Below, one piece after another: positions 5,302 through 34,331 of a stretch of DNA of 34,331 bases (positions within the stretch are counted from its first letter, which is position 1; every line of letters begins with the position of its first letter). The notes beneath the pieces were generated by a model. The model was given only the letters and a program-made list of their open reading frames with translations. It searched no databases and was not told the origin of the DNA. The stretch is from Oscillospiraceae bacterium (GTDB lineage Bacteria > Bacillota > Clostridia > Oscillospirales > Ruminococcaceae), in NCBI GenBank assembly GCA_017829005.1, contig JAGAJF010000137.1, positions 1 to 34,331 on the forward strand, written 5' to 3'. Both the position numbers and the translations under genes were made by a program.

Positions 5302-5862
5302 ATGGTAATTCTTGCATCTGCTTCGCCCAGACGGCAGGAGCTTTTAAAGCTTATTGTAAAGGAATTTTCCGTATGTCCTGCCGATGTGGACGAGACATTG
5401 CCCGAGGAAATCTCAGCCGAAAATGCAGCAGAATATCTTGCGGTGAAAAAAGCAAGGGCTGTTGCGGACAGTCCCGAGCATATGTATGAGCCTGTTATCG
5501 GCTGTGATACGGTGGTCATACTCGACGGCGAAATTATGGGCAAGCCCCGTGATATAAACTGCGCCCGTGAAATGCTCACAAAGCTTTCGGGACGGGTGCA
5601 TAAGGTCATTACGGGGGTATGCATCTGCAGCAGGGGAAAGCAGCAGAGCTTTTCCCAGGTCACCGAGGTGGAATTTTATCCTCTTACCGATAATGAGATC
5701 GAGGATTACATCAAAACAGGCGACCCCATGGACAAGGCAGGTGCTTATGGCATTCAGTCAGAGGGCTGTATGCTTGTCAAGGGCATTAAGGGAGACTTTT
5801 TTAATGTTGTGGGGCTTCCTGTGGCAAGGCTCAAGAGAGAGCTTGACAAAATGGTGCTTTAA
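5302..5862 (+). CDS. maf: Maf family nucleoside triphosphate pyrophosphatase
   Basis: Maf proteins hydrolyse non-canonical or modified nucleotides (dTTP/UTP/pseudo-UTP-type substrates) to monophosphates, and their overexpression blocks septation. The 186-residue product shows the whole signature: LASASPRRQELL at residues 4-15, DVDET, AVKKARAV, IGCDTVV with the catalytic Asp, GKPRD, LSGRVHKVITG, and the C-terminal DKAGAYGIQ and VKGIKGDFFNVVGLP. AAAGGTGA lies upstream of the ATG. It is the last gene of a short plus-strand run and is followed by a strong bidirectional terminator. Confidence 0.95.
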   Translation: MVILASASPRRQELLKLIVKEFSVCPADVDETLPEEISAENAAEYLAVKKARAVADSPEHMYEPVIGCDTVVILDGEIMGKPRDINCAREMLTKLSGRVHKVITGVCICSRGKQQSFSQVTEVEFYPLTDNEIEDYIKTGDPMDKAGAYGIQSEGCMLVKGIKGDFFNVVGLPVARLKRELDKMVL

Positions 5863-5864
5863 TA

Positions 5865-5914
5865 CAAAAAATAAGTCTCTCCCTGTCAGTTCGGGGAGAG
5901 ACTTGCATTTTTTA
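5865..5914. terminator. bidirectional intrinsic terminator between maf and spoIIR
   Basis: An 11-bp perfect stem (AAGTCTCTCCC at 5873-5883 with its complement at 5894-5904). A T-run follows on the plus strand and an A-run precedes it, so it can terminate both maf (plus) and spoIIR (minus). Confidence 0.85.
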
Positions 5915-6550
5915 TTCGGTGGTTTTCTCATTGTTAAACAGCTTTTCAATAAGCTCAGCAATATAAAGCCTTGCTTCATAATCGGCTTCCTCGGAGAGCA
6001 TAAGTATATCCTCCTCGGTAAGCTCGCCGCCGTATTTTTCCATTATCTCCTCGTCTGTGAGGGCGGCTCCTGCGCAGGGAACACATAGGGGCGGGTACAT
6101 CACACACCACCAGTTATGTCCCTCGCCGCTGCCTATGGTCACACGCAGGGCGGTGTAATTCCCGGCGGGAACGGCAAAATCATTGTAAATTCGTCTGTCA
6201 AAGGTCATTTCACGAAGCTCACAGGTGACGGTGTCCTCCGAGCCGTTGGCGGCAAGGGTATTGTCCGCTATTTCCTTTATTCTGTCAAGCTGCTCCGAAA
6301 GTGCCTGCTCCGCTTCTTCAGATGTGGAATATGGCTCGAAAAGCTCCTCGGAGGAAGAGAGTATTGCATCTCTCACAAGAAGCTTTAATCTCTGATCCTC
6401 CTCGCTGTCCGAGTCTGCAAGAATGTGCAGGCGGACAAGACTGTTTTCAAGGCTTTTTTCCGTTTGTGCGGCTGAATATATTCCCGTTACAAGCAGGGAA
6501 AATGTCATTGCGGCGGCGATGAGAGCTGTTTCGGATATGTATTTTTTCAT
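5912..6550 (-). CDS. spoIIR: stage II sporulation protein R
   Basis: In Bacillus this secreted forespore signal activates the SpoIIGA protease, which matures pro-sigma-E in the mother cell. The 212-residue product has an N-terminal hydrophobic export segment (about residues 8-28), then the family core: LVRLHILADSDSEEDQRLKL near residues 39-58, VPAGNYTALRVTIG, and GEGHNWWCVMYPPLC near residues 142-156. The acidic C-terminus is less conserved. In Bacillus it is transcribed by sigma-F; no confident sigma-F promoter could be assigned here. An inverted repeat encloses its ribosome binding site (6549-6586). Its presence implies a sporulation programme, at least ancestrally. Confidence 0.93.
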   Translation of the reverse strand: MKKYISETALIAAAMTFSLLVTGIYSAAQTEKSLENSLVRLHILADSDSEEDQRLKLLVRDAILSSSEELFEPYSTSEEAEQALSEQLDRIKEIADNTLAANGSEDTVTCELREMTFDRRIYNDFAVPAGNYTALRVTIGSGEGHNWWCVMYPPLCVPCAGAALTDEEIMEKYGGELTEEDILMLSEEADYEARLYIAELIEKLFNNEKTTE

Positions 6551-6586
6551 AGGGATAAGTTCCTTTCTTTTTTGATTTATCCCTAT
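6549..6586 (-). promoter_or_regulatory. inverted repeat enclosing the spoIIR ribosome binding site
   Basis: ATAGGGATAA (6549-6558) and its exact reverse complement (6577-6586) form a possible 10-bp stem in the spoIIR leader. The Shine-Dalgarno AAAGGAA lies in the 18-base loop, and the first bases of the start codon lie at the base of the stem. The repeat is seen directly; a regulatory role is inferred. Confidence 0.5.
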
Positions 6587-6633
6587 TATTGGCGCATTTT
6601 CGGCAGTTAATCAGGCTTATAAAAATTATTACG

Positions 6634-6672
6634 GAAAAATGCACGTGAAAGAAGGCGATTCTTTCACGTGCA
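6634..6672 (-). terminator. intrinsic terminator of dapL
   Basis: A perfect 14-bp stem (6640-6653 with 6659-6672) with a five-base loop. Read on the minus strand it is followed by a T-run. It starts five bases after the dapL stop codon. Confidence 0.9.
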
Positions 6673-6677
6673 TAAGT

Positions 6678-7880
6678 TTATTTCAGAAGCTCTTTAAATC
6701 TTCTCATAGCTTCAACCGTATTTTCATATGTGCCGAAGGCGGTGAGCCTGAACCAGCCTGCACCGTTTTTGCCGAAGCCCTCTCCGGGAGTTCCCACTAC
6801 CTGAATGTTGTTTAAAAGATAGTCGAAAAATTCCCAGCTGCCCATTCCGTTCGGACACTTGAGCCAGATATATGGCGAGTTTATGCCGCCTGTGAACTTG
6901 ATTCTAAGCTCGGTGAGGGCGTCCGCCATGACCTTTGCGTTTCTTCTGTAATAATCAATTGCTTCGTGGGTCTGCTTCTGTCCCTCGGGGGTGAATACTG
7001 CTTCTGCACCACGCTGAATGGGGTAGGAAACGCCGTTGAACTTGCTGCCCTGTCTGCGTCCCCATATCTGTGCAAGGCTTACCTCGGAGCCGTCGGAGGC
7101 TTTGACTATAAGCTCCTCGGGGATTATGGTATATCCGCAGCGTGTTCCCGTAAAGCCTGCGGTCTTTGAAAGAGAACACATCTCAATGGCGCATTTCTTC
7201 GCACCCTCCACCGCATAAATGCTTCTGGGCAGCTCGGGGTCGGAGATGAATGCTTCATAAGCGGAATCGAAGATTATCACCGCTTCATTTCTTATGGCAT
7301 AGTCAACCCATTCCTTGAGCTGAGCCTTTGTATAAACTGAGCCTGTGGGATTGTTGGGGGAGCAGAGATAGATTATATCTGCGTGAACGCTTTCATCGGG
7401 CGTTGCCGCAAAGCCGTTTTCCTCGTTGGAGTCGGCATAGATGACCTCTCTGCCTGCCATTATGTTGGAGTCAACATAAACGGGATATGCGGGGTCGGTT
7501 ACGAGAATTGTATTGCCGTCTCCGAAGATATCAACGATATTGCCGCAGTCCGCCTTTGCGCCGTCGTTAACACGTATATCAGACAAATTAAGAGAAACGC
7601 CGAAGCTCTTGTAATAGCCCGCAATGGCTTCTTTCAGAAAATCATAGCCCGAGCCGCTGTCCTCATAGCCGCGGAATGTTTCCTTGACCCCCATTTCGTC
7701 AGCAGCCTTCTTGATGGCTTCAACTACAACAGGTGCAAGGGGCAGGGTCACATCACCGATACCCATTCTGATAAGGGGCTTGTCGGGGTTTGCCTCTGTA
7801 AATGCCTTGAGCCTTTTGGCGATATCTATAAAGAGATAGTTTTTCTTCATTGTAAGGAAATTTTCGTTTATCTTAACCAT
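6678..7880 (-). CDS. dapL: LL-diaminopimelate aminotransferase
   Basis: PLP enzyme that converts tetrahydrodipicolinate plus glutamate directly to LL-DAP, the one-step aminotransferase branch of lysine/peptidoglycan synthesis. The 400-residue product starts MVKINENF and has the class I/II aminotransferase landmarks: IRMGIGDVTLPL, SPNNPTG, an Asp in IIFDSAYEAF, the Schiff-base lysine in SLSKTAGFTGTRCGY, and WFRLTAFG near the end. The true start is 7880, seven bases after GAAAGGA; an in-frame ATG at 7898 lies upstream of that site. It follows dapF by 24 bases, so consecutive pathway steps are adjacent, and ends in a strong terminator. Confidence 0.95.
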   Translation of the reverse strand: MVKINENFLTMKKNYLFIDIAKRLKAFTEANPDKPLIRMGIGDVTLPLAPVVVEAIKKAADEMGVKETFRGYEDSGSGYDFLKEAIAGYYKSFGVSLNLSDIRVNDGAKADCGNIVDIFGDGNTILVTDPAYPVYVDSNIMAGREVIYADSNEENGFAATPDESVHADIIYLCSPNNPTGSVYTKAQLKEWVDYAIRNEAVIIFDSAYEAFISDPELPRSIYAVEGAKKCAIEMCSLSKTAGFTGTRCGYTIIPEELIVKASDGSEVSLAQIWGRRQGSKFNGVSYPIQRGAEAVFTPEGQKQTHEAIDYYRRNAKVMADALTELRIKFTGGINSPYIWLKCPNGMGSWEFFDYLLNNIQVVGTPGEGFGKNGAGWFRLTAFGTYENTVEAMRRFKELLK

Positions 7881-16312: not shown

Positions 16313-16954
16313 TTGAATACAACAGTTTCCGCTTCTATCCTGAGCGCCGATGTCTGCCGCCTGGGAGAGGAGCTTGACAGGATAAAGCAAAGCGGTTGCG
16401 ATCACGTTCATTTTGACGTAATGGACGGGGTCTTCGTGCCAAACATCAGCTTCGGAGTACCCGTTCTTGCAGGCGTGCGCAGGCATACGGATATGTTTGT
16501 TGACGTTCATCTTATGATAACAGACCCGCTTAAATACGTGGGGGTTTTTTCGGACAACGGAGCGGATATGATAAGCTTTCATCTCGAGAGCGATTCAGAC
16601 CCCGCCGCTGTTATCCGTGAGATAAAGGCAAGGGGCAGAAAGGCTGGGATTGCCATAAAGCCGGGAACTCCCGTAAGCAAGGTGCTGCCCTATGTAAGCT
16701 CTGTGGATATGGTCCTTGTGATGACCGTAGAGCCCGGCTTCGGAGGACAGGGCTTTATGCACGAGACGCTTGGCAAGATACGTGAGCTTAAAGCATACAT
16801 CGACAGGGAATGTCCGGGAGTTCACATTCAGGTGGACGGCGGCATCAATGCCGAGACCGCCGCTCTTGTAAGAGAGGCAGGAGCGGATATCCTTGTGGCA
16901 GGCTCATACCTCTTCAAGGGGGATATGGCTGAGGCTGCACGCTCAATGAGATAA
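16313..16954 (+). CDS. rpe: ribulose-phosphate 3-epimerase
   Basis: Interconverts ribulose 5-phosphate and xylulose 5-phosphate, linking xylose catabolism with the pentose phosphate pathway. The 213-residue TIM barrel has SASILSAD at the start, the metal-binding HFDVMDGVFVPN (residues 33-44) and DVHLM, then MTVEPGFGGQGF and QVDGGIN with the second catalytic Asp. It starts with TTG, well placed after AAAAGGAG. It has its own promoter and a hairpin leader. Its 3' end overlaps the convergent mecA-like gene by 12 bases. Confidence 0.95.
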   Translation: MNTTVSASILSADVCRLGEELDRIKQSGCDHVHFDVMDGVFVPNISFGVPVLAGVRRHTDMFVDVHLMITDPLKYVGVFSDNGADMISFHLESDSDPAAVIREIKARGRKAGIAIKPGTPVSKVLPYVSSVDMVLVMTVEPGFGGQGFMHETLGKIRELKAYIDRECPGVHIQVDGGINAETAALVREAGADILVAGSYLFKGDMAEAARSMR

Positions 16955-17470
16955 GCCCGACAGTATTTCCACCGCATTTTTGGGTATCACCATTTTGTCG
17001 TGTTCGGACAGCTTGGCAAGAGACGCTTCGTCCGCAGGGATAATGGTTCCCGTTTCGGAAAGGCTTTCGTACAGAAGGATATCATCGGGCAGACGGACTA
17101 TGAGCCTTAAATGATCCTGTCCGCCCGTAACGGCACTTTCGGGGCAGGAAATGCTCAGAGACTTTATCCTTTTGCATACCCTTATAAGCTCCTCGGCGGA
17201 AGCTGTGGTTATTATCATCGGGCATATTCCTCCCGACTGCGGCTTACGTGTCATAATAAAAACGCACCCTCCCCATCTTACGGGAATTATCTCTACAGAT
17301 ACTGTATATTTCCCCTTTTCGGGAAAAGCTCTTTCCACCATTTCGGATATGAGCAGCGAGACCTTTGGTGAGCCTTCACCGAGCTTTTTGACATTAAGTC
17401 CCGACAGGCACAGCTCCCTTTCGGATATGACTGCTCTTGCCGTGTGTTCTCCCGTTCGTTCTATCCGCAA
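16943..17470 (-). CDS. MecA-like adaptor protein
   Basis: MecA proteins deliver substrates to the ClpC/ClpP protease. The 175-residue product begins with the family's MRIER opening after a TTG start that has an excellent AAGGTGG at seven bases. The middle contains an acidic/basic alternation and the C-terminal half the VEIIPVRWGGCVFIMTRK and CKRIKSLSI strands seen in the ClpC-binding domain. It is shorter than Bacillus MecA (about 218 residues) and diverged, so this call rests on overall pattern rather than on a catalytic motif. It diverges from the Rnf-like cluster. Confidence 0.7.
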   Translation of the reverse strand: MRIERTGEHTARAVISERELCLSGLNVKKLGEGSPKVSLLISEMVERAFPEKGKYTVSVEIIPVRWGGCVFIMTRKPQSGGICPMIITTASAEELIRVCKRIKSLSISCPESAVTGGQDHLRLIVRLPDDILLYESLSETGTIIPADEASLAKLSEHDKMVIPKNAVEILSGLSH

Positions 17471-17505: not shown

Positions 17506-18555
17506 ATGAAAAAGAAAGAACCCCGTATGCTCACTACCTTTGTACGTGAGCAAAGGGAAGGTAAAAGTAACCGCCCCGATGATTTCGGCGCCATGGTCAA
17601 TATGCTTTTAGTGCTTACTGTAACGGCGGCAATGTCCGTATATTACTACGGAATGAGAGCGGCAGTGCTTTGTGTGCTGTGCGTAGGAGTTTGCTGGGGG
17701 CTTGATGTTCTCTGCCTTATCCTACAGAGCAAAAGCCTGCATATCCACGATATTTCACCCATAATAACAGGGCTTGCCATTGCTCTTATGCTGCCTGCCT
17801 CCGTGCCGTATACCATAGCCGCTGCCGCCTGCGCATTTGCTGTATGCATTGCCAAGCATCCATTCGGCGGTCACGGCAAAGAGATAGTAAACTGTGCTGC
17901 GGCAGGATATATTTTTGCGGAGCTTTGCTTTCCCTCGGCAGTGTTGTCATACCCTAAGCCTATGACGGCGCTTCCTCTCACAAACATCATAACAGAAGGG
18001 CTTTATCCCTCCTTTACCTCGGCGGCAATGCGCTCCACATCTGCCTCATATACGGATATTGAGCTGCTTATCGGCAATTTTACGGGTCCTATGGGCTGTA
18101 CCTTTACAGTTCTTACCGCTGTATGCGCCCTGTATCTCATATCCAGGAAAGCTATTTCTGGAACGGTTTTCTTCACAGAGCTTGCAATAGTTCTGGGCTG
18201 GAGCCTTGCGGCAGGAGGCGTTTTCAGGGTAAAGACCGCACTTGTGGGCGGTATGCTCCTTTTCGGATTATCGGTACTTTCCTGCGATAACGGCATCGTT
18301 CCGAAGTCTGTTCCCGAGAAGCTGCTTTTCGGCGCTGTTTCGGCGGTCATTCTCATTGCCGCAGGAGAGATATCCCGCCTTGAAAATCCTGTGGTCTATG
18401 CGGCAGTGCTTTCTGCACCCTTCGGCAGACTTACGGGTAAATTTGGCGAACTTGCACGCCGCAGAAAGAGAGCAAAAAACATTTTCGGAAAGTATGCCGA
18501 TGATATCAGCGAAACTATTGCAATGACAGGGGGCGGCGACGATGGAAACGGCTAA
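17506..18555 (+). CDS. RnfD/NqrB-like membrane protein without recognisable FMN site
   Basis: A 349-residue polytopic membrane protein of the NqrB/RnfD family. Matching landmarks are the TGLAIALMLP helix, VCIAKHPFGGHGKEIVNCAAAGYI (compare [22 protein letters not shown] of E. coli RsxD), the IGNFTGPMGCT glycine turn and KLLFGAVSAV. In working Rnf/Nqr proteins a Thr in an S-x-A-T-P-L segment holds covalent FMN; here the equivalent stretch reads SAAMRS (about residues 172-177). The later SGAT...DPVT segment is also gone (GGMLLFGLSVLSCDNG). The ATG at 17506 follows AAGGA; an upstream in-frame ATG is antisense to mecA. It overlaps the next gene by 14 bases. Confidence 0.8.
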   Translation: MKKKEPRMLTTFVREQREGKSNRPDDFGAMVNMLLVLTVTAAMSVYYYGMRAAVLCVLCVGVCWGLDVLCLILQSKSLHIHDISPIITGLAIALMLPASVPYTIAAAACAFAVCIAKHPFGGHGKEIVNCAAAGYIFAELCFPSAVLSYPKPMTALPLTNIITEGLYPSFTSAAMRSTSASYTDIELLIGNFTGPMGCTFTVLTAVCALYLISRKAISGTVFFTELAIVLGWSLAAGGVFRVKTALVGGMLLFGLSVLSCDNGIVPKSVPEKLLFGAVSAVILIAAGEISRLENPVVYAAVLSAPFGRLTGKFGELARRRKRAKNIFGKYADDISETIAMTGGGDDGNG

Positions 18556-19147
18556 GAAAAAATGGTCATTTTCTGAGGGACTTTTCACCCATAATCCCGT
18601 TTTTGCGGCGGGAATGTCCCTTGCCCCTGCCATAATCATAGCAAACACATTTCACGGAGCGTTGACCTATGCCGCCGTATTTTCCTCGGTAACGCTTATG
18701 TCTCTGATGATTTCCTCCTTTCTTCCGAGAAAGCTGCCATATGCCCTTCGTATAATATTATATACCTTTATTGCGGCGGCGGTGTATATCCCGTTCTGCA
18801 TTTTTTTCGAGGGACGGCTGGATTACGACCTGTCAAAGCTGGGCGTTTTCCTTCCTATGATAGTTTCGGGAGAATTTATCACCCGTGCGTCCGAGCTGAG
18901 ATTTTTCCGCATGGAAAAGAGCAGAATGATACTCGATGTCATATCCCACATTTTAGGCTTTTGCTGGGCAGTCATATTTCTGGGCTTTGTGAGAGAGCTT
19001 TTCTCCACAGGCGGAATTGACGGCACACTTTACGGCATAGGCTTTACCATACCCATTCTGAACGCTCCCTGCGGCGGATTTATCCTTATCGGGCTTATGG
19101 GCGCATTTATCAGATCCTTCAAGAAGGAGGGCAGAGCAAATGAATGA
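18542..19147 (+). CDS. RnfE-like membrane protein lacking the cluster cysteines
   Basis: A 201-residue six-helix protein aligned by eye with RnfE/NqrD: FSEGLFTHNPVF opening, LGVFLPMIV, LGFVRELFS and the C-terminal GGFILIGLMGAF. In canonical RnfE, GLCP and TNC provide two cysteines that ligate an intramembrane [2Fe-2S] cluster shared with RnfA. Here those positions are Ala (SLAP, residue 28) and Glu (VSGE, residue 111). The three cysteines present lie elsewhere. The start overlaps the end of the RnfD-like gene, and the end overlaps the RnfA-like gene by eight bases, indicating translational coupling. Confidence 0.82.
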   Translation: METAKKKWSFSEGLFTHNPVFAAGMSLAPAIIIANTFHGALTYAAVFSSVTLMSLMISSFLPRKLPYALRIILYTFIAAAVYIPFCIFFEGRLDYDLSKLGVFLPMIVSGEFITRASELRFFRMEKSRMILDVISHILGFCWAVIFLGFVRELFSTGGIDGTLYGIGFTIPILNAPCGGFILIGLMGAFIRSFKKEGRANE

Positions 19148-19745
19148 AACAGGCTTCCTTCAAAGTCTCCTAACCTCCGTGCTGATGTCGGTAATTGCCG
19201 AAAATTTTGTTTTTGCCAGAGCCTTAGGTGTTACTCCGATGATAGCTGCCGCAAAAAACAAGAGAACTCTTCCGGGAGTGTGTTTGGGAGTTTCCTATTT
19301 TACGGCGGCGGCTTCCATAGCAATGTGGGGAGTATCACAGCTTCCCTTTGCGGCGGAGCGTGACAGGCATTATCTTGTGGCGCTGTATGCACTTATTGTC
19401 GGCAGTATTTATCTTGTCACCCTTCTTTGTGCTTTTTTGTTTGTAAGAAGCAAATTTCCCAAATTTAAAAAATATGTGCATATTTCAGCGTTTAACAGCG
19501 CTGTTATGGGTACAATATTTCTGAGCGCTTCGGGCTGTGAAAGCTTCGGAGAATATCTCCTTTTCGGACTGACAGCAGGTCTTGGCTTTATGGCGGCTTC
19601 ATATATGCTGTCGGGAGTTTACACACAGCTTTATTCGGAAGACGTTCCCGGAGCATTCAGAGGCTATCCCGCGGTAATGATCTTTTCGGGAATAATGGCA
19701 ATGGCGGTGTACGGCATTTTAGGTCACGCACCTGCTTATATATAA
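19140..19745 (+). CDS. RnfA-like membrane protein lacking the cluster cysteines
   Basis: A 201-residue membrane protein, clearly RnfA/NqrE-type: ENFVFARALGVTP (compare NNFVLVKFLGLCP), AFNSAVMGTIF (compare TTNCAVLGVAL), LLFGLTAGLGFMAA and EDVPGAFRGYPAVMIFSGIMAMA (compare [23 protein letters not shown]). Both cysteines that ligate the [2Fe-2S] cluster in Rnf are replaced, by Thr at residue 32 and Ser at residue 119. AAGGAGG precedes the ATG. It is third in the trio and is followed 18 bases later by the glycosidase-like gene. Confidence 0.85.
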   Translation: MNETGFLQSLLTSVLMSVIAENFVFARALGVTPMIAAAKNKRTLPGVCLGVSYFTAAASIAMWGVSQLPFAAERDRHYLVALYALIVGSIYLVTLLCAFLFVRSKFPKFKKYVHISAFNSAVMGTIFLSASGCESFGEYLLFGLTAGLGFMAASYMLSGVYTQLYSEDVPGAFRGYPAVMIFSGIMAMAVYGILGHAPAYI

Positions 19746-19763: not shown

Positions 19764-21074
19764 ATGAAAAGAAGAAAGAAAATTTTCAAGCCCAAAAGGC
19801 ATTATAAAATAAAAAGAAGAAACGAAAATGCGGTGAAGATAATTGCAGGTGCGGCGGCTGTGGCAGCGCTTATTTTCGTGGGCTACAGCGTTGCGGGACC
19901 TATCGGAAGATACATCGCCTCCCGTCCCGACAGAACAGAGTCGGAGCCTTGGACGCCTTCCGATACCGATGTTGTTTCCGAAAGCCTTCCCGTAGATCCG
20001 GAAAGCGTTTCCGAAGCTGTAAGCAGCGTTCAGACGGAGAGCCTGCCTGCTGTAAGCGAAACTTCTGCCATAGCAGGTGAAACAACACAGGCACCTGCCG
20101 TTTCAGAGACAGAGCTTATCGAAACCGCTCCCGCAGCCGTTGTCAGAGAGGGCGGAGCGGCATATTACCTTGCCCCCGACAGTATGGCAGATTCCGACAG
20201 CCTGAACGCCGCTCTGGACGAGCTTGGAGCAAGCGGCTGCAGTGCTGTCATATTCCCCGTAAAGACCGAGGGGGGAGTGTTCCACTATGCCACCGAGCTT
20301 GATTTTGTGGACACCGTTATTGACGGAAACGATCCTGTTGTTTCCCAGCTTTCCGCTTCGGATATCGTAAATGCCGCCGAAAGCAGGGGACTGCGCCCCG
20401 TAGCACTTGTTTCCGTGCTTTATGACAACAACCGCTACGGTGATTACCGTGACGGCTCCTACAGAAGCGAGGACGGCGATACCTGGCTTGATACTTCTCC
20501 CGAAAAGGGCGGCAAGCCATGGCTCTCTCCCTTTGATGAAACAGCACAGGAGTATCTCTGCGATATCGTCACAGAGCTTGGCAAGGCAGGCTTTACAGAG
20601 GTCATATGCGACGATTTCATCTTCCCCGAGTTCCGTTCTTCGGATATTGATATGCTGGGCGAGGAGGTATCGCCCTACAGCGACCGTTACCACGCTCTCA
20701 CGTCTCTTGCGGTGATGATGAACAATGCAGGAAACGAGGCAGGCACGGAGGTAATGCTCAGAATTACGGCAAATTCCGTTATCAGAGGCTACAGCGAGCT
20801 TTTCTATCCCGACGAGCTTGATGGCTGCCGCATAATGATAGACTACTCGGAAAACAACATCAGCCGCACTATGGTGGCAGGAAACGAGGAAGTCATTCTC
20901 GATGATATGGATATGTACGAGAAGATAACCGCTGTTTACGGCGAAGTTTCATCACGCTGCGGCGATCTACCCGCATATCCTATGCTTGACAGGGAGTCTA
21001 TGTCCGCGGACGATTTTGACGAGGCTGTGAAGGCTCTTACCGCAATGGGCTATGACAAGTATTACGTTTATTGA
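19764..21074 (+). CDS. membrane-anchored putative glycoside hydrolase (DUF4015-like)
   Basis: A 436-residue protein with a very basic N-terminus, one hydrophobic span (about residues 24-48), a Ser/Thr/Glu/Val-rich linker to about 125, and a barrel-like domain resembling the DUF4015 putative glycosyl hydrolase family. Supporting segments are AVIFPVKTEGG, GLRPVALVSVLYDN, WLSPFDETAQEYLCDIVTELGKAGFTEVICDDFIFPEF (the family's region near the active-site acid) and the closing YPMLDRESM. Substrate unknown; an extracellular polysaccharide is likely. GAAAGGA precedes the ATG. Co-directional and close to the Rnf-like trio and miaB. Confidence 0.75.
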   Translation: MKRRKKIFKPKRHYKIKRRNENAVKIIAGAAAVAALIFVGYSVAGPIGRYIASRPDRTESEPWTPSDTDVVSESLPVDPESVSEAVSSVQTESLPAVSETSAIAGETTQAPAVSETELIETAPAAVVREGGAAYYLAPDSMADSDSLNAALDELGASGCSAVIFPVKTEGGVFHYATELDFVDTVIDGNDPVVSQLSASDIVNAAESRGLRPVALVSVLYDNNRYGDYRDGSYRSEDGDTWLDTSPEKGGKPWLSPFDETAQEYLCDIVTELGKAGFTEVICDDFIFPEFRSSDIDMLGEEVSPYSDRYHALTSLAVMMNNAGNEAGTEVMLRITANSVIRGYSELFYPDELDGCRIMIDYSENNISRTMVAGNEEVILDDMDMYEKITAVYGEVSSRCGDLPAYPMLDRESMSADDFDEAVKALTAMGYDKYYVY

Positions 21075-22561: not shown

Positions 22562-22591
22562 TAATCTATGAAAGGGAAAGGAGGCTTCCAA

Positions 22592-23068
22592 ATGAGGCAG
22601 GAAGAGCAGTACAAGGAATACGCCGACAGGGTGTACAAATATCTTATGAGCCTCAGCGGAGGAAACGACAGCCTTTCCGAGGAGCTTACCCAGGAGACCT
22701 TTTTCCGAGCCATAACCCACGCCGAAAGCTTTGACGGGCGGGTGAAGATGACCACCTGGCTCTGCGCCATTGCGAAAAATCTCTACATATCCCATCTGCG
22801 CAGGGAAAAGCGGCGGGAGGACTGCGAGATAGACGATATCCCGATGGATACCGACATTTCGGGAAGAATGGAGCAGAGGGATATATACAAGGCTGTTCAC
22901 CGTCTCCCCGAGCCATATCGTGAGATAGTGCTTCTGAAAATACACACGGATATGAGCTTTTTGGAGATAGGCGAGATATTCGGAAAATCCGAGACCTGGG
23001 CGAGAGTGACCTTCTTTCGAGGGAAAGAACGGCTTAGAGAAATTCTGAAAGGAGAGGATATTTTATGA
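22592..23068 (+). CDS. ECF-type sigma-70 family sigma factor
   Basis: A 158-residue extracytoplasmic-function sigma factor. Region 2 spans about residues 5-75 (YADRVYKYLMSLSGGN, LTQETFFRAI, DGRVKMTTWLCAIAKNLY); region 4 spans about 105-155 (LPEPYREIVLLKIHTDMSFLEIGEIFGKSETWARVTFFRGKERL). ATG 22592 follows AAAGGAGG; an in-frame ATG at 22568 lies upstream of that site. The stop overlaps the anti-sigma start (ATGA). Confidence 0.92.
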   Translation: MRQEEQYKEYADRVYKYLMSLSGGNDSLSEELTQETFFRAITHAESFDGRVKMTTWLCAIAKNLYISHLRREKRREDCEIDDIPMDTDISGRMEQRDIYKAVHRLPEPYREIVLLKIHTDMSFLEIGEIFGKSETWARVTFFRGKERLREILKGEDIL

Positions 23069-24330
23069 AAACGGACTGCGATATCATCAGAGACCTGCTC
23101 CCTCTTTATTCGGACAAGGTATGTTCGGAAAGCAGCAGGCGGCTTGTGGAGGAGCATTGCGCCAAATGTGAAGAATGTGCCGAACAGCTTACTGCAATGT
23201 CCGCAGAGCTTCCTCGGGAGGAAAAGGCAGGAGGGGCGAAAAATCCGCTGAAAAAAACAAGAAGGCATTATCTGAAGCTGGCATTTTTAACGGCAGCAGT
23301 GGCGGTGCCGATGGCTGTGGTCATATGCATTTTGTGTGCCATATCCATAAATGAAACTAATCACAGCGGACAGATAAGCTGGTCGGCAATTGCTGCGGAG
23401 CGTGAAATGACTGATTTCGGAAACTTGCTAAAAAAGGGCAATTACCGCAAGGCTCTTTCAATGGTGGGCTTCAAGGGGCTGGACGATGTAAACAGAAAAA
23501 ACGAGGGCGAGCGGCTTGATGCCTATACAAAAATATTCGGAGATTTCTTTTCACAGTATCCCATATCGGATATTGACTGCGAAGCACATTATTACTGCAC
23601 GATAATGAGGGGCGAGCTTGATCTTTACCTTGACCAAAAATATACCTATGATATACCTCTGAAAGTGTACATATGCTTTGAGATGGACGAGGAGGGTGAC
23701 TGCTATATTACTAAGGCAATTGTGAATAGCGATGATACTGGCGATAAATACCAAAGCAGTGAAGACGAATGGATGGAGATCGATGATAAATTTTCAGTTC
23801 CCGCTTACCCCGGAAATTTAGCTCTTGAAAGAATAGAAGGCGCTCTCAAAGGAAACGGTTTCATCGGTTCGGATAATACTCTGCAGATATTTACTTCTGA
23901 GTTCAACAAAAGGAATAACGAGGTTTATAGGATTTATGACAAATATATCGCCGAGGGCGACTGGGAGAACACCGAAACGGAAGAATGCAAAGCCGAGCTT
24001 GCACCTATGGTCGAAGCCCGAGATGAATATCTTGCGAATTACAGCGCAGAGGTAAAGAGGCTTTTCACCGATGCATACACCCTTATATCGGTCGAGGGAG
24101 AAGAGCCTTATTACTCCGACGAGGTCTATCTTGATAATTCGGTTTATGCTTATGGCAAAGGCTGCTTTAAGCAAAGATTTACTCTGAATATGGAGACAAA
24201 GGAGGGGGAGAGCTTCTTCGTAAAATTCACCTCCAAGGTGCAGTATTTTGCGGATATCCCCGAGGACATAGAATTTTCTGACAACGCTCCCGAAGGGTTC
24301 AGAGAGGGATTTAGTAAGCTATTCTGCTGA
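23065..24330 (+). CDS. zinc-finger anti-sigma factor with large extracytoplasmic domain
   Basis: Presumed antagonist of the preceding sigma factor. The 421-residue product begins with a ZAS/zf-HC2 domain (H31, C35, C38 in HxxxCxxC), then one membrane span (about residues 68-92), then a long outer domain with many aromatic and acidic residues. No known sensor domain is recognised in the outer part. It is translationally coupled to the sigma gene by ATGA, the usual arrangement for cognate pairs, and followed by a terminator. The signal it senses cannot be read from the sequence. Confidence 0.85.
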   Translation: MKTDCDIIRDLLPLYSDKVCSESSRRLVEEHCAKCEECAEQLTAMSAELPREEKAGGAKNPLKKTRRHYLKLAFLTAAVAVPMAVVICILCAISINETNHSGQISWSAIAAEREMTDFGNLLKKGNYRKALSMVGFKGLDDVNRKNEGERLDAYTKIFGDFFSQYPISDIDCEAHYYCTIMRGELDLYLDQKYTYDIPLKVYICFEMDEEGDCYITKAIVNSDDTGDKYQSSEDEWMEIDDKFSVPAYPGNLALERIEGALKGNGFIGSDNTLQIFTSEFNKRNNEVYRIYDKYIAEGDWENTETEECKAELAPMVEARDEYLANYSAEVKRLFTDAYTLISVEGEEPYYSDEVYLDNSVYAYGKGCFKQRFTLNMETKEGESFFVKFTSKVQYFADIPEDIEFSDNAPEGFREGFSKLFC

Positions 24331-24735: not shown

Positions 24736-26193
24736 TTACTGAGCCTGAGCCGCATTAAGCTCGTCAACAACCTCTGCAACGAGAACATCAAGGGCACCGG
24801 AAAGCTCTTCTCTTGTGGTAGCCCACTCAACGCCATGGAGAGCAGCGTTAAGACCAACGCTCTTATTTGCGTTTGAAGTGGTAAGGCTTTCGATATCGCT
24901 GGACATACCGCCTGCAATATCAACAACAGGGTACTGACGAGCAAGGTCGTTTATCTCATAGCGATGAGCAATTACGTCCTCGGGCCACTTGTAGTCCTCA
25001 CGGCACTGCTTGTCATATACTTCCTTTGCACCCTCATCAAGCGCAGCAGCAAGACCGCACTCTGCGTAAAGAGCAACACCGAGAGGATTTTGCGCGCCTC
25101 TTGTAAGGCAGAAGCCGTCAAGCACAGCGTCCTGCCAGGGGTGCTCAGCGTCGGCAGCATTGGGAACGGGTGCCATACCCAGATTTTCGGGAGGAATCTT
25201 TGTGGACCAGGACTCGGGAGGATTCATAACAGCCCAGGAACCTGTAATGAAGAACAGCTCTCTGCCTTCAGCCATGAACTGAGGCTGCTCAGCCCAGTCA
25301 TAAAGGGACTTATCCATAACAAGACCCTTGTTGTAAAGATCGAGCATATTGTTCATAGCCTTTTCGATCTTCACGCTCTGCATATTAACAACTATCTCGC
25401 CGTCCTTAGCTTCAATGAAAGCTTCTCCGCCGGAACGATAGAGAGCAAGCTCAGACCACCAGCCGTCAAGACCGCAGTTGTTGTCGGGGTCTGCTTCAAT
25501 AAATGTCTGGAGCATATCCGAGAAGGTATCCCAGTTCCATTCGCCTGCTTCATAAAGCTCCCAGGGATCATCAAAGCCGTATTCTTCAATAGTCTGCTTG
25601 TTGTAAAGAACAACATTGTTTGCGGAAACGCCTGTAACAAATGCATAATGCTTGCCATTGAAGTTGTACTTGTCCATAGCCACCGCAACATCGGACCAGA
25701 GGTCGCTGTTTAAGTCGATATAATCATCAACAGGCTGGAACATACCGTTGATAACGCCCTTGGGAAGGCACTCTTCATCACGGGGGAAAAAGTCAACGCC
25801 TGTGCCGCCGAGTACGTGTGTGCTAAGGTCTGAGTAACGTGTTTCCCATGTAGTGGGAACCCATTCAATGCGGCAGCCATATTTGTCCTGGAACATACTG
25901 AGCTGTACGGGGAGAGACTCGCCCTCAACGGGGTTGATATCCCAGTGGCTGAGGAACTTAATGGTCTTGTTTTCCAGAGTTTCGTCACGGAGCAGAGAAG
26001 CAGCGCCGCTAATAGCCTCCACGTCCTCGCTTGCCATAGTTACGGTAGTAGTCTCGCCTGTGGTAGTAGCCGCTGTAGTAGATGCAGCAGAAGTTTCTCC
26101 GCCTTCTGTTGAATTTCCGCCGCCGCAGGCTGTAAGTCCAAGAGCGAATGTAAGAGCGGATATTCCTGCTACTGTTCTTTTAAAGTTTTTCAT
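24736..26193 (-). CDS. extracellular sugar-binding lipoprotein of an ABC transporter (family 1)
   Basis: A 485-residue solute-binding protein with a lipobox (LTAC, Cys23) after a signal peptide and a Thr/Ser-rich tether. The mature part carries the family 1 pattern: KTIKFLSHWD, FQDKYGCRIEWVPTTWETRYSDLSTHVLGGTGVDFFP and FITGSWAVMNPPE. Such proteins bind oligosaccharides at the cell surface. Adjacency (44 bases) to a lipoprotein xylanase suggests xylo-oligosaccharides. No permease or ATPase gene accompanies it here. GGAGG precedes the ATG. Confidence 0.88.
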   Translation of the reverse strand: MKNFKRTVAGISALTFALGLTACGGGNSTEGGETSAASTTAATTTGETTTVTMASEDVEAISGAASLLRDETLENKTIKFLSHWDINPVEGESLPVQLSMFQDKYGCRIEWVPTTWETRYSDLSTHVLGGTGVDFFPRDEECLPKGVINGMFQPVDDYIDLNSDLWSDVAVAMDKYNFNGKHYAFVTGVSANNVVLYNKQTIEEYGFDDPWELYEAGEWNWDTFSDMLQTFIEADPDNNCGLDGWWSELALYRSGGEAFIEAKDGEIVVNMQSVKIEKAMNNMLDLYNKGLVMDKSLYDWAEQPQFMAEGRELFFITGSWAVMNPPESWSTKIPPENLGMAPVPNAADAEHPWQDAVLDGFCLTRGAQNPLGVALYAECGLAAALDEGAKEVYDKQCREDYKWPEDVIAHRYEINDLARQYPVVDIAGGMSSDIESLTTSNANKSVGLNAALHGVEWATTREELSGALDVLVAEVVDELNAAQAQ

Positions 26194-26237
26194 AAAAATA
26201 CCTCCATTTGATTTTTTTGATTTATTGCTTACTATTG

Positions 26238-27890
26238 TTATTCCTGATTGTTAACTGCCTCGATCATACCGTCAAAAGCAGGCTTTCTGCTGAGATCGTC
26301 ATTGAAGATAAGCGGATAATCCGATGACAGCCACGAATCCGTATCACTTATTCCCCAAAGAGTAACGCTTGTGATGGGAACTCCGTTTTTGCGGAGCTTA
26401 AGTATCTCTGACATGAACTCTTTATAATAATCGCCCTGTTCCTGCTGCCAGTTGTCACTCTTGCCTCTGCAAACATCAAGCTCGGTCACGTTTATCTCAA
26501 GTCCCAGCTCGTCGTAATATTTCTGCAAAGCTGTCATATACTGTGATATGCTTATATCCACGTTTATATGTGACTGCATTCCCATGCCGTCAATGTTTCC
26601 TGCCTCAACAACAGGACGAAGAAATGTGATAATGTCGTTCTGCTTTCGTGTCTGGTAGGAATTGTAATCATTGTAGAAAAGCTTGGTACCTTCGGGTGCA
26701 TATTTTCTTGCAAACATAAATGCCTGCTCAATGTAATCTTCACCAACAGTCTGATACCAGAGGCTTTTTCTCATTCCGCCGCCGTCATCGGCAGCCTCGT
26801 TAACAACGTCCCAGGCTCTTACAAGTCCGGGATAATTTTCCTCGGTCCATTCCATAACATTTTTTATGTAATTTTCCATTCGTGCAAGCATTGTCTCACG
26901 GTCAGCAAGCTCTCCGCCGATGTCGTAATTCTTATAGAAAAGCCAATCGGGAGTCTGATTGTGCCAAAGAAGGGTGTGACCTCTTACCGTAAGTCCGTTG
27001 TCCCTTGCGAAATCAAGCTCGGTCTTAACAGCGTCAAACTTAACGGCGGGAGAATACATATACTTGTCAATATCACGGACAGTTTTGTTATGGTCCAGTA
27101 TTGAATCGGGCTTGAAGCTGTTTCCCATGGTCATACTGTTGTACTGAGCCTTTATAAGCTTTGCATACGGCTCCTTATCCAGAAGATTTGGCGAGGTAGC
27201 GGTACCTATTCTGAAATAATCCTTGTACTCTTCCTTGAGAGACGGATAATCGGAGGTGTCAACAAACTCTGTTGCCACAGCCTCGGGATAATAGGTATAA
27301 TCTCCGCAGACCTTTACCGAAAAATCGTCGATATAAATATCCTCAAGCCTGTCGCTTTCCACATAAACGATAATATTTTCCGCATTCTTGGGAACGACAT
27401 ATTTGCCGCTTGCTTTTGAATATGAGCTTTCCGTTGTGTTTACGGAAGCGATGGTGTTATAGGACGTATTATCGTTAACAGTATACTGAATTGATATCCT
27501 GACGCTTGGATTTGAGCTTCTGAATGAACCCTCGGCTTCAAGCTCGTTGCCTCTGAATTTATCGGCATTGTACTGAACGCCGTCCCAGGAGTTGTTTCTG
27601 TTGAATATTCTCAGTGCGCCCTTGTCGGAGGCGGCTTCATCTTCGGAATATCTTAGGATAACAGTACCTCTTTTTTCGGCAAGGAAATTTTCATCAGAAA
27701 AGCTTTCGCAGATAACAGGAGGCTCAGTATTTTCCACAGCAGTTTCGGACAATATGCTCAGTACCTCTTCGGTCATACTTTCCTCGGAAGCACTCTCCGT
27801 GACAGACTGCTGCTCAGGAGAACCCGTGCTGCCGCAGGCTGATAAAAAGAGGATACAAGCTGCTGCTGCGCCAATTTTTTTGATATTCAT
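26238..27890 (-). CDS. lipoprotein GH10 endo-1,4-beta-xylanase with N-terminal CBM22-like domain
   Basis: A 550-residue surface xylanase. A signal peptide with lipobox LSAC (Cys19) precedes a Ser/Thr/Glu-rich tether. Residues about 60-205 resemble a CBM22 module (GALRIFNRNNSWDGVQYNADKF, SVRISIQYTV, IYIDDFSV). The GH10 catalytic domain follows (about 215-548): FRIGTATS, VRGHTLLWHNQTPDWL, the acid/base Glu in WDVVNEA, MGMQSHINV, the nucleophile Glu in NVTELDV and the VTLWGISDTDSWL strand. It probably attacks xylan at the cell surface. It is the first gene of a unit with the binding protein and lies behind a promoter with operator-like repeats. Confidence 0.92.
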   Translation of the reverse strand: MNIKKIGAAAACILFLSACGSTGSPEQQSVTESASEESMTEEVLSILSETAVENTEPPVICESFSDENFLAEKRGTVILRYSEDEAASDKGALRIFNRNNSWDGVQYNADKFRGNELEAEGSFRSSNPSVRISIQYTVNDNTSYNTIASVNTTESSYSKASGKYVVPKNAENIIVYVESDRLEDIYIDDFSVKVCGDYTYYPEAVATEFVDTSDYPSLKEEYKDYFRIGTATSPNLLDKEPYAKLIKAQYNSMTMGNSFKPDSILDHNKTVRDIDKYMYSPAVKFDAVKTELDFARDNGLTVRGHTLLWHNQTPDWLFYKNYDIGGELADRETMLARMENYIKNVMEWTEENYPGLVRAWDVVNEAADDGGGMRKSLWYQTVGEDYIEQAFMFARKYAPEGTKLFYNDYNSYQTRKQNDIITFLRPVVEAGNIDGMGMQSHINVDISISQYMTALQKYYDELGLEINVTELDVCRGKSDNWQQEQGDYYKEFMSEILKLRKNGVPITSVTLWGISDTDSWLSSDYPLIFNDDLSRKPAFDGMIEAVNNQE

Positions 27891-27948
27891 GGCATCATCT
27901 CCATTTTAACTGCATTATATCTTGCTGTTTGATTTTGTTCTTTTCTGT

Positions 27949-27978
27949 ATTATAACATACGCCCAATAGGTAAAGCAA
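27949..27978 (-). promoter_or_regulatory. probable promoter of the lipoprotein xylanase unit
   Basis: On the minus strand TTGCTT (27973-27978), 18 bases, TATAAT (27949-27954). A second TATAAT lies nearer the gene (27914-27919) without a clear -35. Confidence 0.55.
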
Positions 27979-28011
27979 TACAATTATTGCTTTTGTGTTG
28001 ACCAATAATTG
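27975..28011. promoter_or_regulatory. operator-like inverted repeats over the -35 of the xylanase promoter
   Basis: GCAATACAATTATTGC (27975-27990) has six-base perfect arms and overlaps the -35. CAATTATTG (27981-27989) and its complement CAATAATTG (28003-28011) form a second, 13-base-spaced inverted repeat. Repeats are seen directly; a xylan-responsive regulator is inferred. Confidence 0.45.
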
Positions 28012-28223
28012 TGCATTATGCCTTTTGCATATCCTGGCTGAACAGGAAAACCATTTATATTAAAGGTTTAATATCGCAAAATGTGTAAAGCAAAGCGCAA
28101 TATTCGGCAGGAAAAGAGGAAAAAAATAATATATAATTAAACCAACGATTATTCTTGCAATACATAATCAGGTAATATCCATAATTTTTTTATCGAAAGG
28201 AGTCAAAATTAAATTCATATCAA
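28012..28223. other. AT-rich gap with no recognised gene
   Basis: This part of the 408-base gap has no convincing ORF. A strong AAAGGAG (28196-28202) on the plus strand is not followed by an ATG, GTG or TTG at normal spacing; only an ATT-led frame of 18 residues (28208-28264) follows it. It may be a relic of a lost gene. Confidence 0.4.
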
Positions 28224-28284
28224 AAAAAGAACTGCTGAACTGTTCCCGCGCTTACAGGGCGTGAGACATTCAGCGGTTCTTTTT
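28224..28284 (-). terminator. long-hairpin terminator after the alpha-glucuronidase gene
   Basis: A 16-bp stem (28224-28239 with 28269-28284, one G-U pair) with an internal GC-rich loop that can pair further. T-rich at the end on either strand. It separates the two xylan transcription units. Confidence 0.75.
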
Positions 28285-28298
28285 ATTATCAAAAATTG

Positions 28299-30266
28299 TT
28301 ATTTATAAATTTTTCTTCCTCTAATATCGTCAATTCCCGATTTTCTGTAGTAATATGTGTTTATCACATCACGCCACTGCCTGCTGTTTAATACCTGTTT
28401 TTCAAGGCGCACTTCGGCTTCACGGTAAATATCCTCGGGCAGCTTGTCTTTAAGGGAACGCCATCTCATAAGAAGCTCTTCCGCTCTCTCCGCCCCTTCA
28501 AAATGGCTGTCGTAAATATGCTGTATCAGAGTCTTTCCGCTTTTGAGCATATAGGTGTAGGGCAGATGATGGAAAAACAGAAGCAGCTCCTCGGGACAGG
28601 CAGAAGCATTTTCATACATCTCCTCGTTATGGGGAGCGTACTGTGCTGTATATCCCGTTCCTGTCGTCTTTGTTCTGTCAACACCCATACCGTCTCTGTC
28701 GGAATAATGATAAGTTCCCCAGGGTGAATACTCATAACCGTCAACGTCCACCCCGTAATGATAATGAGGCGTAACCATCCAGCCCACACCCAAAGGAGAA
28801 GTGTAGCTTTCGTAAATTTCCCGTGATGACAAAAGCATACGGCATATGATATCAGCCGTTTCATTATGGGAAGTCACCGCCGCCCTTACCCATTCTTCCG
28901 CTATCTGCTCAGCCGAAAGCCCGGGGTCAAAAATCAGCCTGCCGTAGCCGTAAAGATTAGCTCCCGCAAGAGGATCACCCGTCCAGCAAAGGTCATTTCC
29001 AACATTTGAAACTCCCGCCGCCCCCAGAATATTTCTTTTAACAAAGGAGCCTTCACCACCGTGATACGTGTCAAAGTCCAGACATTCCTTCCACATAGGC
29101 ACAAGGTAGCAAAGATCTATCTGCTGTCCCGTGTATTCCTGAGTTATCTGAAGCTCGCACAGACAGTTTGTATGAGACATTGCCCCGAACAGCGGAGAAA
29201 CAGCTTCTCTTATCTGAAAATCCATAGGACCGTTTTTTATCTGCAGATATACGTTGTCCCCGAATTTTCCGTCCAAGGGCTTAAAATTGTCATAAGCAGC
29301 CTTTGCCCTGTCGGTAGACCTGTCTCTCCAGTCAACGTGGCAGTTATAAACAAAGCACCGCCAGATGACCTTGCCGCCAAAGGGCATTAAAGCAGCCGCA
29401 AGCATATTTGCTCCCTCAGCGTGATCTCTGCCGTAGGTATGAGGACCGGGGCGGTTTTCCGAGTCGGCTTTGACAAGAAATCCTCCGAAATCGGGAATGT
29501 GCCTGTAAATGGTTTGTGCCATATTTTTCCACCAATTTATGACCCTTTCGTCCAGCGGGTCGGCAGTAGTCAGCCCGTCAATTTCCATAGGAGCGGCAAA
29601 GTTTATGCTGAGATACAGCTTTATGCCATAATCACCGAAAATATCCGCAATTTTTCCGATACGGGGAAGAAATTCCTCGGTAATAAAAAGGGTCTCGGTC
29701 TTATGCACATTAACATTATTTATGCATATGGCATTTATCCCCACAGAGGAAAGGAGCCGTGCATAATCCGTAAGCCTGTTCATATCCGAAACGGGACAGC
29801 CCTTCTCGTAAAATATAGAAGCACCCGAATAACCTCTTTCCACCGTACCGTCGGCATTGTCCCACTGATCTATCATTCTCAGGTGATAGCAGGGCTTTTC
29901 GGTAATGTTAAGGCTCTCGGGAGAATATCCCCCCGAAGCGAGGATAAGAAATCTGAAAACTCCGTAAAGAACGCCGTTTTCATCGCCCCCCTCAACAGTA
30001 ACGCTTTCGTCTGAAACGGAAATACTGTATCCGCCATCTCCGAAGCTTTCATTTACCCGAAGAATAAAGCACCCACCCGAAAAAGGCTCGGATATCCTTT
30101 CGGGGATATTTCCCGTAAGCCGTTCGTAAGCCGTCTCAAGCTCCTTTGCGGCAGAGCTTATCACCCTGCCGCAGGAGAGTACGCAAAGCCTTGAAAGATA
30201 CCTTTCCGCCCATTTCATGGAACTGTCCTTGCCGTAAGCAAGCCAGCAGTCATAAAGCCTATCCAT
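28299..30266 (-). CDS. alpha-glucuronidase, GH67
   Basis: Releases (4-O-methyl-)glucuronic acid from the non-reducing end of acidic xylo-oligosaccharides. The 655-residue product has no signal peptide, so it acts in the cytoplasm. Three-domain GH67 layout: an N-terminal beta domain ([26 protein letters not shown]), a TIM barrel beginning near [22 protein letters not shown], and a C-terminal helical domain. The catalytic acid is E270 in [10 protein letters not shown]; the two acids of the inverting base pair are D349 (NGPMDFQ) and E377 (ITQEY). GAAAGG precedes the ATG, six bases after the cytoplasmic xylanase gene. Confidence 0.94.
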
Positions 30267-30272
30267 AGCATT

Positions 30273-31499
30273 TTACCTTTCAGATATCTGTAATCCTTCT
30301 TCAAAGTCCTTGCCGTCATTTCTGACGATGTATTCTTTTCCGTCAACGGAAATGACGTATTCCCCCTTGAAGCCGTAAAGCTCAAAGCAGCCGTTATCAT
30401 CAGTCACAGCGGAATATTCCGTAGACCATTCCTTTTTGATAAGTCCCGAAAGCATATCATAAGCAGGCTTGGGAGAGCTGTCACGCCTAAGAATACCGCT
30501 TGGAGCATTGAGCCAGCCGCCGTCGGTAAAATCCCAGCCCGTAACCGCCTCCACAAGAGGGTGAGCAAATAAAATGCGGTACATTTCTTCAAGCACATTT
30601 TTCTGCTGCTCCTCATATTCGGGCAGCGACTCCCAGCTTTCGGGGTTAAAATCGTTCAGATCAACTATCTCGGGAGGCATAGGCTTTCCCGAAATAATTG
30701 TATTTTCCGTAAAATGGATAGGCAGCCCGAAGCGCTCAAAACGGTGAAGTACACTCTCAAGCTTTTCGGCGCCCCAGTATCCCTGATGCTGATGAGACTG
30801 AATGCCGATAGCGTCAATGGGAACTCCGGCGTCAAGACATTCTTCAATTACCCGTGCATAATTCTCGGAAGTGTTAAAATCGTTTATAAGCAGCACTGCA
30901 TTCGGGTCGGCTTCTTTTGCCGCCGCAAATACCGACTTGATAAGAGGGATCCTGCCAAAGTGCCTGCAAAGCCTTGTAACAGCATTGTCATACCTGTCAA
31001 AATCGGGCATAATGACCGTTTCATTGATAACGTCCCACAGCGTGACCTTACCCTTGAATGCACTTACCTCACGGGTAATTCGGTCAAGCTGTCTCTGCAT
31101 TATCTCCTCATCACTATACTTCAAAAGCCAGTCGGCGCAGACCGTATGCCAGCAAAGAGGATGACCCTTTACCTTTGCCCCGATCCTTGTGATACGGTCA
31201 ACGCATTTCATAAGCTTGTCCTGCATAAGAGTGCCTTCCGTAGGCTCATACTGACCCCAATAGAAGGGGAGAGTGCCGTAATTGAAAAGTGCCTCCCAAT
31301 ACTCCGCACGAGGAGCAAAACGAGCCTTCTCCTCCTCTGTTTTCGCATTAGTGTATGCCAGAACATCAAATGCGCCCCAGCCGAATAAAAAGCTGTGATT
31401 TTTGAGCTTAACGCTCACCTGCTTGCCCGAAGCAGGCTTACCGTCAGCTCCTGTGATAATGATTTTTTTCCCCGCCTTGCGGTGTTCATAGTTTTCCAT
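30273..31499 (-). CDS. cytoplasmic GH10 endo-xylanase with flanking beta-domains
   Basis: A 408-residue GH10 enzyme without signal peptide. It starts with a short beta segment (KKIIITGADGKPASGKQVSVKLKNH), continues with the GH10 barrel (VKGHPLCWHT, acid/base Glu in WDVINETV, IGIQSHQHQGYWG, nucleophile Glu in IHFTENTI, GWDFTDGGWL) and ends with another beta segment (NGCFELYGFKGEYVISVDGKEY). It probably shortens imported xylo-oligosaccharides. The ribosome binding site TAAGGAG overlaps the upstream stop codon. Encoded in the same unit as GH67 and the esterase, unlike the lipoprotein GH10. Confidence 0.9.
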   Translation of the reverse strand: MENYEHRKAGKKIIITGADGKPASGKQVSVKLKNHSFLFGWGAFDVLAYTNAKTEEEKARFAPRAEYWEALFNYGTLPFYWGQYEPTEGTLMQDKLMKCVDRITRIGAKVKGHPLCWHTVCADWLLKYSDEEIMQRQLDRITREVSAFKGKVTLWDVINETVIMPDFDRYDNAVTRLCRHFGRIPLIKSVFAAAKEADPNAVLLINDFNTSENYARVIEECLDAGVPIDAIGIQSHQHQGYWGAEKLESVLHRFERFGLPIHFTENTIISGKPMPPEIVDLNDFNPESWESLPEYEEQQKNVLEEMYRILFAHPLVEAVTGWDFTDGGWLNAPSGILRRDSSPKPAYDMLSGLIKKEWSTEYSAVTDDNGCFELYGFKGEYVISVDGKEYIVRNDGKDFEEGLQISER

Positions 31500-31511
31500 A
31501 TTAAAAACTCC

Positions 31512-34124: not shown

Positions 34125-34129
34125 AAGGC

Positions 34130-34331
34130 TCACATTTCCGCAAGTTCCTTCATCTGCTCCCTGACAGCAGGATAAACCTTGTCATACAGTCTGAAAAACT
34201 TCTCATAAACGGGAACATTCTCAGGAACTGGCTCCTGAACCTTGTCAACGCCGCATATCACATCGCAAGCCTCGGGAACACTGCCATAAACACCCGCACC
34301 CACAAGTGCAAGAATAGCCACACCCAGAGCA
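34130..34331 (-). CDS. xylulokinase-type FGGY carbohydrate kinase, C-terminal end only
   Basis: The last 67 codons of a gene that continues beyond the window edge. GVAILALVGAGVYGSVPEAC matches the glycine-rich C-terminal ATP-domain helix of FGGY kinases, and the ending YEKFFRLYDKVYPAV resembles the closing YxxFxxLYPAL of xylulokinases. In this locus it would phosphorylate xylulose. The stop overlaps the possible GTG start of the esterase fusion (four bases), indicating co-transcription. The fragment is too short to separate xylulokinase from other FGGY kinases. Confidence 0.75.
   Translation of the reverse strand, partial: ALGVAILALVGAGVYGSVPEACDVICGVDKVQEPVPENVPVYEKFFRLYDKVYPAVREQMKELAEM

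Follow-up and report, generated by a model that had tools for sequence, protein, structure and literature searches.

An Rnf-derived D-E-A membrane trio apparently without its known electron-carrying sites in gut-type Clostridia

Judging from their sequences, many gut-type Clostridia retain a D-E-A membrane complex descended from an electron-driven ion pump but without its known electron-carrying sites. The example from which the analysis started lies in the window (the whole 34,331-nucleotide stretch that was analyzed), which is contig C98 of a 163-contig draft genome that is 93.7% complete. It is close to certain in our judgment that this trio represents the D, E, and A membrane core of Rnf: RnfB, RnfG, the ligands of the E/A cluster, and the flavin motif of RnfD would have been lost on one stem, and RnfC lost later in most lineages and diverged in some, with the core held under purifying selection and found also in species without the canonical partners. 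The trio and its immediate neighbors are arranged as follows.

16313..16954, + strand: ribulose-phosphate 3-epimerase gene (rpe), from the family scan; a syntenic landmark
16943..17470, − strand: MecA-like gene between rpe and the trio, from the family scan
17506..18555, + strand: RnfD-like membrane protein, 349 aa, matching PF03116; the frame upstream is open to a TTG at 17437
18542..19147, + strand: RnfE-like membrane protein, 201 aa, PF02508; Ala28 and Glu111 at the ligand sites, Arg70 and Glu118 kept
19140..19745, + strand: RnfA-like membrane protein, 201 aa, PF02508; Thr32 and Ser120 at the ligand sites, Asn119 kept
19764..21074, + strand: DUF4015 (putative glycosyl hydrolase domain) protein with a basic N terminus and one hydrophobic stretch

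The preliminary description, made from the letters of the DNA, had proposed three overlapping RnfD-, RnfE-, and RnfA-like genes, and the open reading frames and Pfam matches of the window bear this out. The D and E frames overlap by 14 bases and the E and A frames by 8. All three proteins passed the curated cutoffs of the Rnf/Nqr superfamily families with most of each profile covered: the D-like protein matched PF03116 (9.6e-39, 133.9 bits, cutoff 27.7), and the E-like (1.4e-24, 87.5 bits) and A-like (2.5e-19, 70.4 bits) proteins matched PF02508 (cutoff 23.8). Scores against the NCBIfam models of the individual subunits fell far under their cutoffs (rnfD, 79.8 against 207 bits; rnfE, 53.4 against 213; rnfA, 65.5 against 229). 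RnfB, RnfC, and RnfG, described as absent nearby, were found neither among the window open reading frames nor in Pfam or NCBIfam scans of 18 of them lying outside the trio, a subset of the total. An Rfam search of the window and 10 fetched loci returned tRNAs only and no riboswitch, a promoter scan of the window came out near chance, and of 9 terminator-like sites (4.2 expected) none was clearly positioned after the trio. No neighboring gene of the trio names a substrate. Farther along the window, directly after miaB, a sigma-70 family (ECF-like) gene is followed by a zf-HC2-domain gene, probably its anti-sigma factor (22568 to 24330), and positions 24736 to 34133 of the − strand carry two GH10 genes, one GH67 gene, and genes for a solute-binding protein and an esterase/hydrolase-domain protein, a run that probably serves xylan use.

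Alignment to the chains of solved Rnf structures and a MAFFT alignment placed the four [2Fe-2S] ligand positions at Thr32 and Ser120 of the A-like protein and at Ala28 and Glu111 of the E-like protein. All four cluster cysteines are therefore replaced, as first described, and no functional cysteine stands at an equivalent position; one residue number needed correction, as residue 119 of the A-like protein is a conserved Asn and the earlier S119 was off by one. The flavin segment of the D-like protein is likewise lost, with the xATPL motif missing. A later segment of the same protein (SGAT...DPVT), which had been called gone, is diverged but not wholly so, since G249 and P266 survive.

The same losses recur across the group. 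Ligand cysteines numbered 0 or 1 of 4 at all 49 trio loci (34 with one, 15 with none) versus 4 of 4 in 29/29 rows of full Rnf, and in 33 of the 34 one-cysteine loci the survivor occupied the RnfA C113 position. Across the trio loci the four positions mostly read Ser, Cys or Ser, Ala, Ser, and in the window Thr, Ser, Ala, Glu. None of the 49 D proteins had the xATPL motif, which was present in 26/29 full rows (the misses being L088, L093, and L108); among the trio loci, the D proteins of L062, L073, and L095 matched a looser flavin-motif pattern only. Within the stretches fetched, RnfG was found at 0/49 trio loci, matches to the RnfB model reached 29 bits at most, and a diverged RnfC was present at 7 loci and absent from 42, while the same three models detected B, C, and G in 27/27 full loci. 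Because the loss is common to 49 loci, the pattern is far beyond chance, with the proviso that the 49/49 and 29/29 counts are of sequences and not of independent events, the tree making the loss one event. An exception to this clean split was L107 (positions 5998 to 7195; contig C9 of G413), a complete second Rnf operon of its genome (C, D, G, E, A, B) whose ligands are altered: the first site of RnfA reads GCGSF, and the second site of RnfE is Gly. It is possibly a living intermediate, or possibly a separate loss.

The trio is widespread in the family of the window. A search of 396 family genomes, first with the A-like protein and then with a 28-row profile, gave a strong match (173.5 bits or more) in at least 150 of them, counted by profile score rather than by reading of each locus; the RnfA proteins of the full operons that were read scored at most 139 bits. 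The 49 loci read as D-E-A without B and G, the window included, come from four families of one order: 45 from the family of the window and L087, L095, L112, and L119 from the three others. Outside the order, the stronger matches in a 398-genome sample of the phylum yielded six loci from five genomes (L100, L101, L102, L114, L115, and L125), all of the full Rnf type with four cysteines, and a wider spread of the trio is possible given that only stronger matches were drawn. The 29 full rows comprise 27 loci, Escherichia coli, and the genome of the window itself. Left out of the counts were L005 to L008 (L008 being the contig of L040 and the rest closely related to the window, with two of these truncated at a contig end), L101 (a D fragment; cysteines CCCC), and L107.

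In a concatenated tree of D, E, and A (34 rows, 13 trio and 21 full; 706 columns), the B-less rows formed one clade with 100/100 support on a stem of 1.55, nested within a 100/99 group that also contained a set of full Rnf operons from that order. A larger quick tree (34/49 trio and 27/29 full rows) agreed, with a single trio clade (100), so that a clade sharing the same substitutions, named in advance as what would support the proposal, was recovered in both. Placement was flagged as unsure for L095, L112, L096, L119, and L059 in the quick tree and for L058, L076, L087, and L069 in the careful one. The long trio branches leave some small room for an artefactual joining of separate losses, against which the synteny common to the trio loci argues: a stable order of rpe, a mecA-like gene on the opposite strand, in some loci an RnfC-like gene, then D, E, A, and the DUF4015 gene. 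Of the 49 loci, 48 have rpe and 45 have DUF4015; a mecA-like gene scores at least 50 bits in 27, and the number rises to 30 if weak matches are counted. Parts of this order were also seen in full operons of the sister set, with a mecA-like gene upstream in L090 and L109 and DUF4015 downstream in L091 and L122; no rpe was found at these four in the stretches fetched. The likely order of loss, as read from sequences in living genomes, has the stem losing B and G together with the sites in E/A and in D, and C following later, in more than one event on the careful tree.

The constancy of the downstream gene suggests that the trio might be an ion-flow or mechanical module serving the DUF4015 protein, much as envelope machines driven by a gradient do, a reading that we hold to be on the unlikely side while giving it real weight. 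It accords with the 45/49 count, with the recurrence of the gene behind the two full operons, and with a DUF4015-YkyA fusion known elsewhere, YkyA being otherwise paired with polysaccharide deacetylases (PMC12700454; sources cited by PMC number are drawn on in excerpt throughout). Yet rpe is just as constant a neighbor, and the association may therefore be no more than synteny; in 4/14 trio genomes DUF4015 is absent or only weakly matched. The gene is moreover kept in 8/20 trio-less genomes examined, adjoining rpe in 7 of those 8, by which DUF4015 was rejected as an obligate partner of the trio. D, E, and A are all gone from seven of the eight; the remaining one, G108, retains an RnfD-like gene alone at the rpe-DUF4015 site, without E and A (L165, positions 5376 to 6671).

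That the proteins are maintained rather than decaying, as had been proposed, is what the substitution rates indicate. For the D gene of the window, Nei-Gojobori dN/dS was 0.076 against L005 and 0.109 against L039; the corresponding values were 0.127 and 0.105 (E) and 0.072 and 0.115 (A). The loss of subunits and sites might by itself suggest that the trio is what is left of an old Rnf operon in decay; with dN/dS at 0.07 to 0.13, 8 columns of the A-like alignment invariant across 28 diverse rows, strong A-like matches in so many genomes, and D, E, and A in open frames at the loci read (the D of L041 being cut by a contig end), we find that explanation scarcely credible, and in the comparison of the window with its two closest relatives decay is refuted at the level of selection. 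A redox pump thus appears, from its descendants, to have shed its redox parts once, after which selection preserved the membrane core. The core is nonetheless dispensable: several species in the family have lost it, and G090 and G288, of the same genus as the window, have no PF02508 gene at all.

In the cell from which the window derives, the trio is an extra set beside a canonical Rnf. That genome holds four PF02508 genes, namely the window pair and a canonical pair, and a separate complete Rnf with C, D, G, and E on contig C7 and A and B on contig C129 (its RnfG match, at 55.5 bits, lies below the cutoff of 102). Between the canonical rnfA and rnfB, positions 667 to 1686 of L002 (contig C129 of G000) encode a 339-aa lipoprotein-looking open reading frame, and a gap of similar size separates rnfA and rnfB in L099 (G063). 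Since full Rnf accompanies the trio in this genome and in others, the trio could be imagined as an accessory or exchange module of the same cell's canonical complex, an idea that we consider very improbable: A, D, and E are already encoded in the canonical operon, and three species (G177 and G237, of the genus of the window, and G194; 93 to 99% complete) have two PF02508 genes each, both belonging to the trio. In these three draft genomes no RnfC exceeded the cutoff, RnfG had no match, and no RnfB match was better than 2.7e-11. The trio thus occurs both with and without a full Rnf, as the preliminary description had asked; holding it with no RnfB, RnfC, or RnfG near the cutoff, these genomes indicate that it does not depend on canonical Rnf, and they largely refute a borrowing of canonical partners.

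Loss of the known sites need not mean loss of redox chemistry, and the trio might instead be a redox complex working on other cofactors (a noncovalent flavin, a mononuclear metal, or a quinone) and supplied by the diverged RnfC at those loci that have one. We judge this unlikely, more so than a module for DUF4015. Two 4Fe-4S motifs were present in each of the 6 RnfC-like proteins examined of the 7 at B-less loci (L119 being outside the examination), and the RnfA C113-position cysteine is kept in 33/49 loci; yet a single cysteine cannot hold a cluster, 42/49 loci have no RnfC in the stretches fetched, and the only well-conserved His is H114 of A (88% of 43 rows). The GLGGAGFPT motif, which we take to be the NADH/FMN loop of RnfC, was missing from all 6 diverged proteins, a comparison tempered by the failure of 5/13 full-operon RnfC proteins to match the same strict pattern. 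In the three trio-only species, furthermore, no RnfB, RnfC, or RnfG near the cutoff offers itself as electron donor or acceptor. In favor of such a complex, riboflavin has been reported in RnfD (PMC9588780 and PMC11889175).

Part of the proposed Na+ site has endured in the trio. In Clostridium tetanomorphum, the four cysteines are described as lying at four helix breaks, where the RnfA/RnfE hourglass is narrowest (PMC9588780), and work on Acetobacterium woodii places the Na+ path in RnfA/E rather than RnfD, with alternating access, and assigns the site to the R67-E115 pair of RnfE and N112 of RnfA, surrounded by E88, T110, and T111 (PMC11889175). R67 was kept in 44/49 trio loci, E115 in 40/49, and N112 in 48/49; the pair was kept in 39/49, as were all three residues together, which in the window are R70, E118, and N119. 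For comparison, columns at least 90% identical in full Rnf retained a median of 22% identity (A) and 33% (E) in the trio, and R154, said in the A. woodii work to interact with the RnfB cluster (PMC11889175), was kept in 3/49. The surrounding RnfA residues of the path are mostly replaced: E88 by Leu in 37/49, T110 by Ala in 32/49, and T111 by Phe in 42/49, with Q85 kept in 0/49 (in the window, E88, Q85, T110, and T111 correspond to L95, L92, A117, and F118). The Arg-Glu pair is broken in 10/49 loci (L047, L061, L072, L077, L095, L096, L097, L098, L119, and L121), which lie mostly on deep or RnfC-bearing branches. The site looks rebuilt rather than merely eroded because two residues of A are newly conserved, namely F118 (42/49), two residues from a lost ligand, and Y91 (45/49).

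We infer that the trio has probably been repurposed as a different membrane machine, most likely a transporter. The E/A path would still be able to open to either side, with electrons no longer gating it; an ion gradient, instead of electrons, would drive or regulate transport through E/A, with D as a partner and with Na+ or something else as the substrate. From the fold, the kept Na+-site residues, and the loss of cofactor sites, cation or small-solute transport through E/A seems a nearly evenly balanced proposition as the function of D-E-A. Taken whole, a stripped Rnf core turned transporter is the best explanation on offer, and we would put it at an even balance. Somewhat more tentatively, the E/A/D fold of Rnf may have given rise to a class of nonredox transporters or channels that shed their carriers in stages readable in living genomes and that move an ion or small solute in many gut-type Clostridia.

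Which part of Rnf and Nqr moves the ion has been disputed (PMC11889175). A naturally occurring D-E-A complex that lacks the cluster site, the flavin motif, and the redox subunits, yet preserves some of the proposed Na+ site, offers a way to ask if E/A by itself suffices for ion movement. For annotation, an "Rnf subunit" label on the trio genes would credit many gut bacteria with redox parts through which electrons could not pass along the known route.

No report of such a carrier-less D-E-A trio was found in the literature covered on Rnf/Nqr and DUF4015 (including PMC4014512 and PMC12174285, both in excerpt), a body that takes in little of the subscription literature. Among known systems, the closest is Rnf itself (rnfCDGEAB; A. 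woodii, 9ERI to 9ERL; C. tetanomorphum, 7ZC6), to whose subunits the trio proteins D, E, and A are homologous and from an operon of whose kind the trio descends, its D-E-A order matching D-G-E-A. Of the six subunits that define an Rnf (A, B, C, D, E, and G), most trio loci have D, E, and A alone; unlike Rnf, the trio has no B or G, mostly no C, no E/A ligands, and no RnfD flavin motif, and so it has no known electron path. Na+-NQR (NqrA to NqrF) contains homologs of the trio proteins in NqrB, NqrD, and NqrE, yet it keeps the cluster site and flavins (PMC9588780), whereas the trio has neither known site. The NQR/RNF-like partial flavinylation systems of Meheust et al. (2021; PMC8238504) are likewise partial and include an NqrB/RnfD-type membrane protein; as described there, they work as redox systems and comprise both an FMN-binding partner and a domain like NqrF, whereas the trio presents the reverse, a membrane core without carriers.
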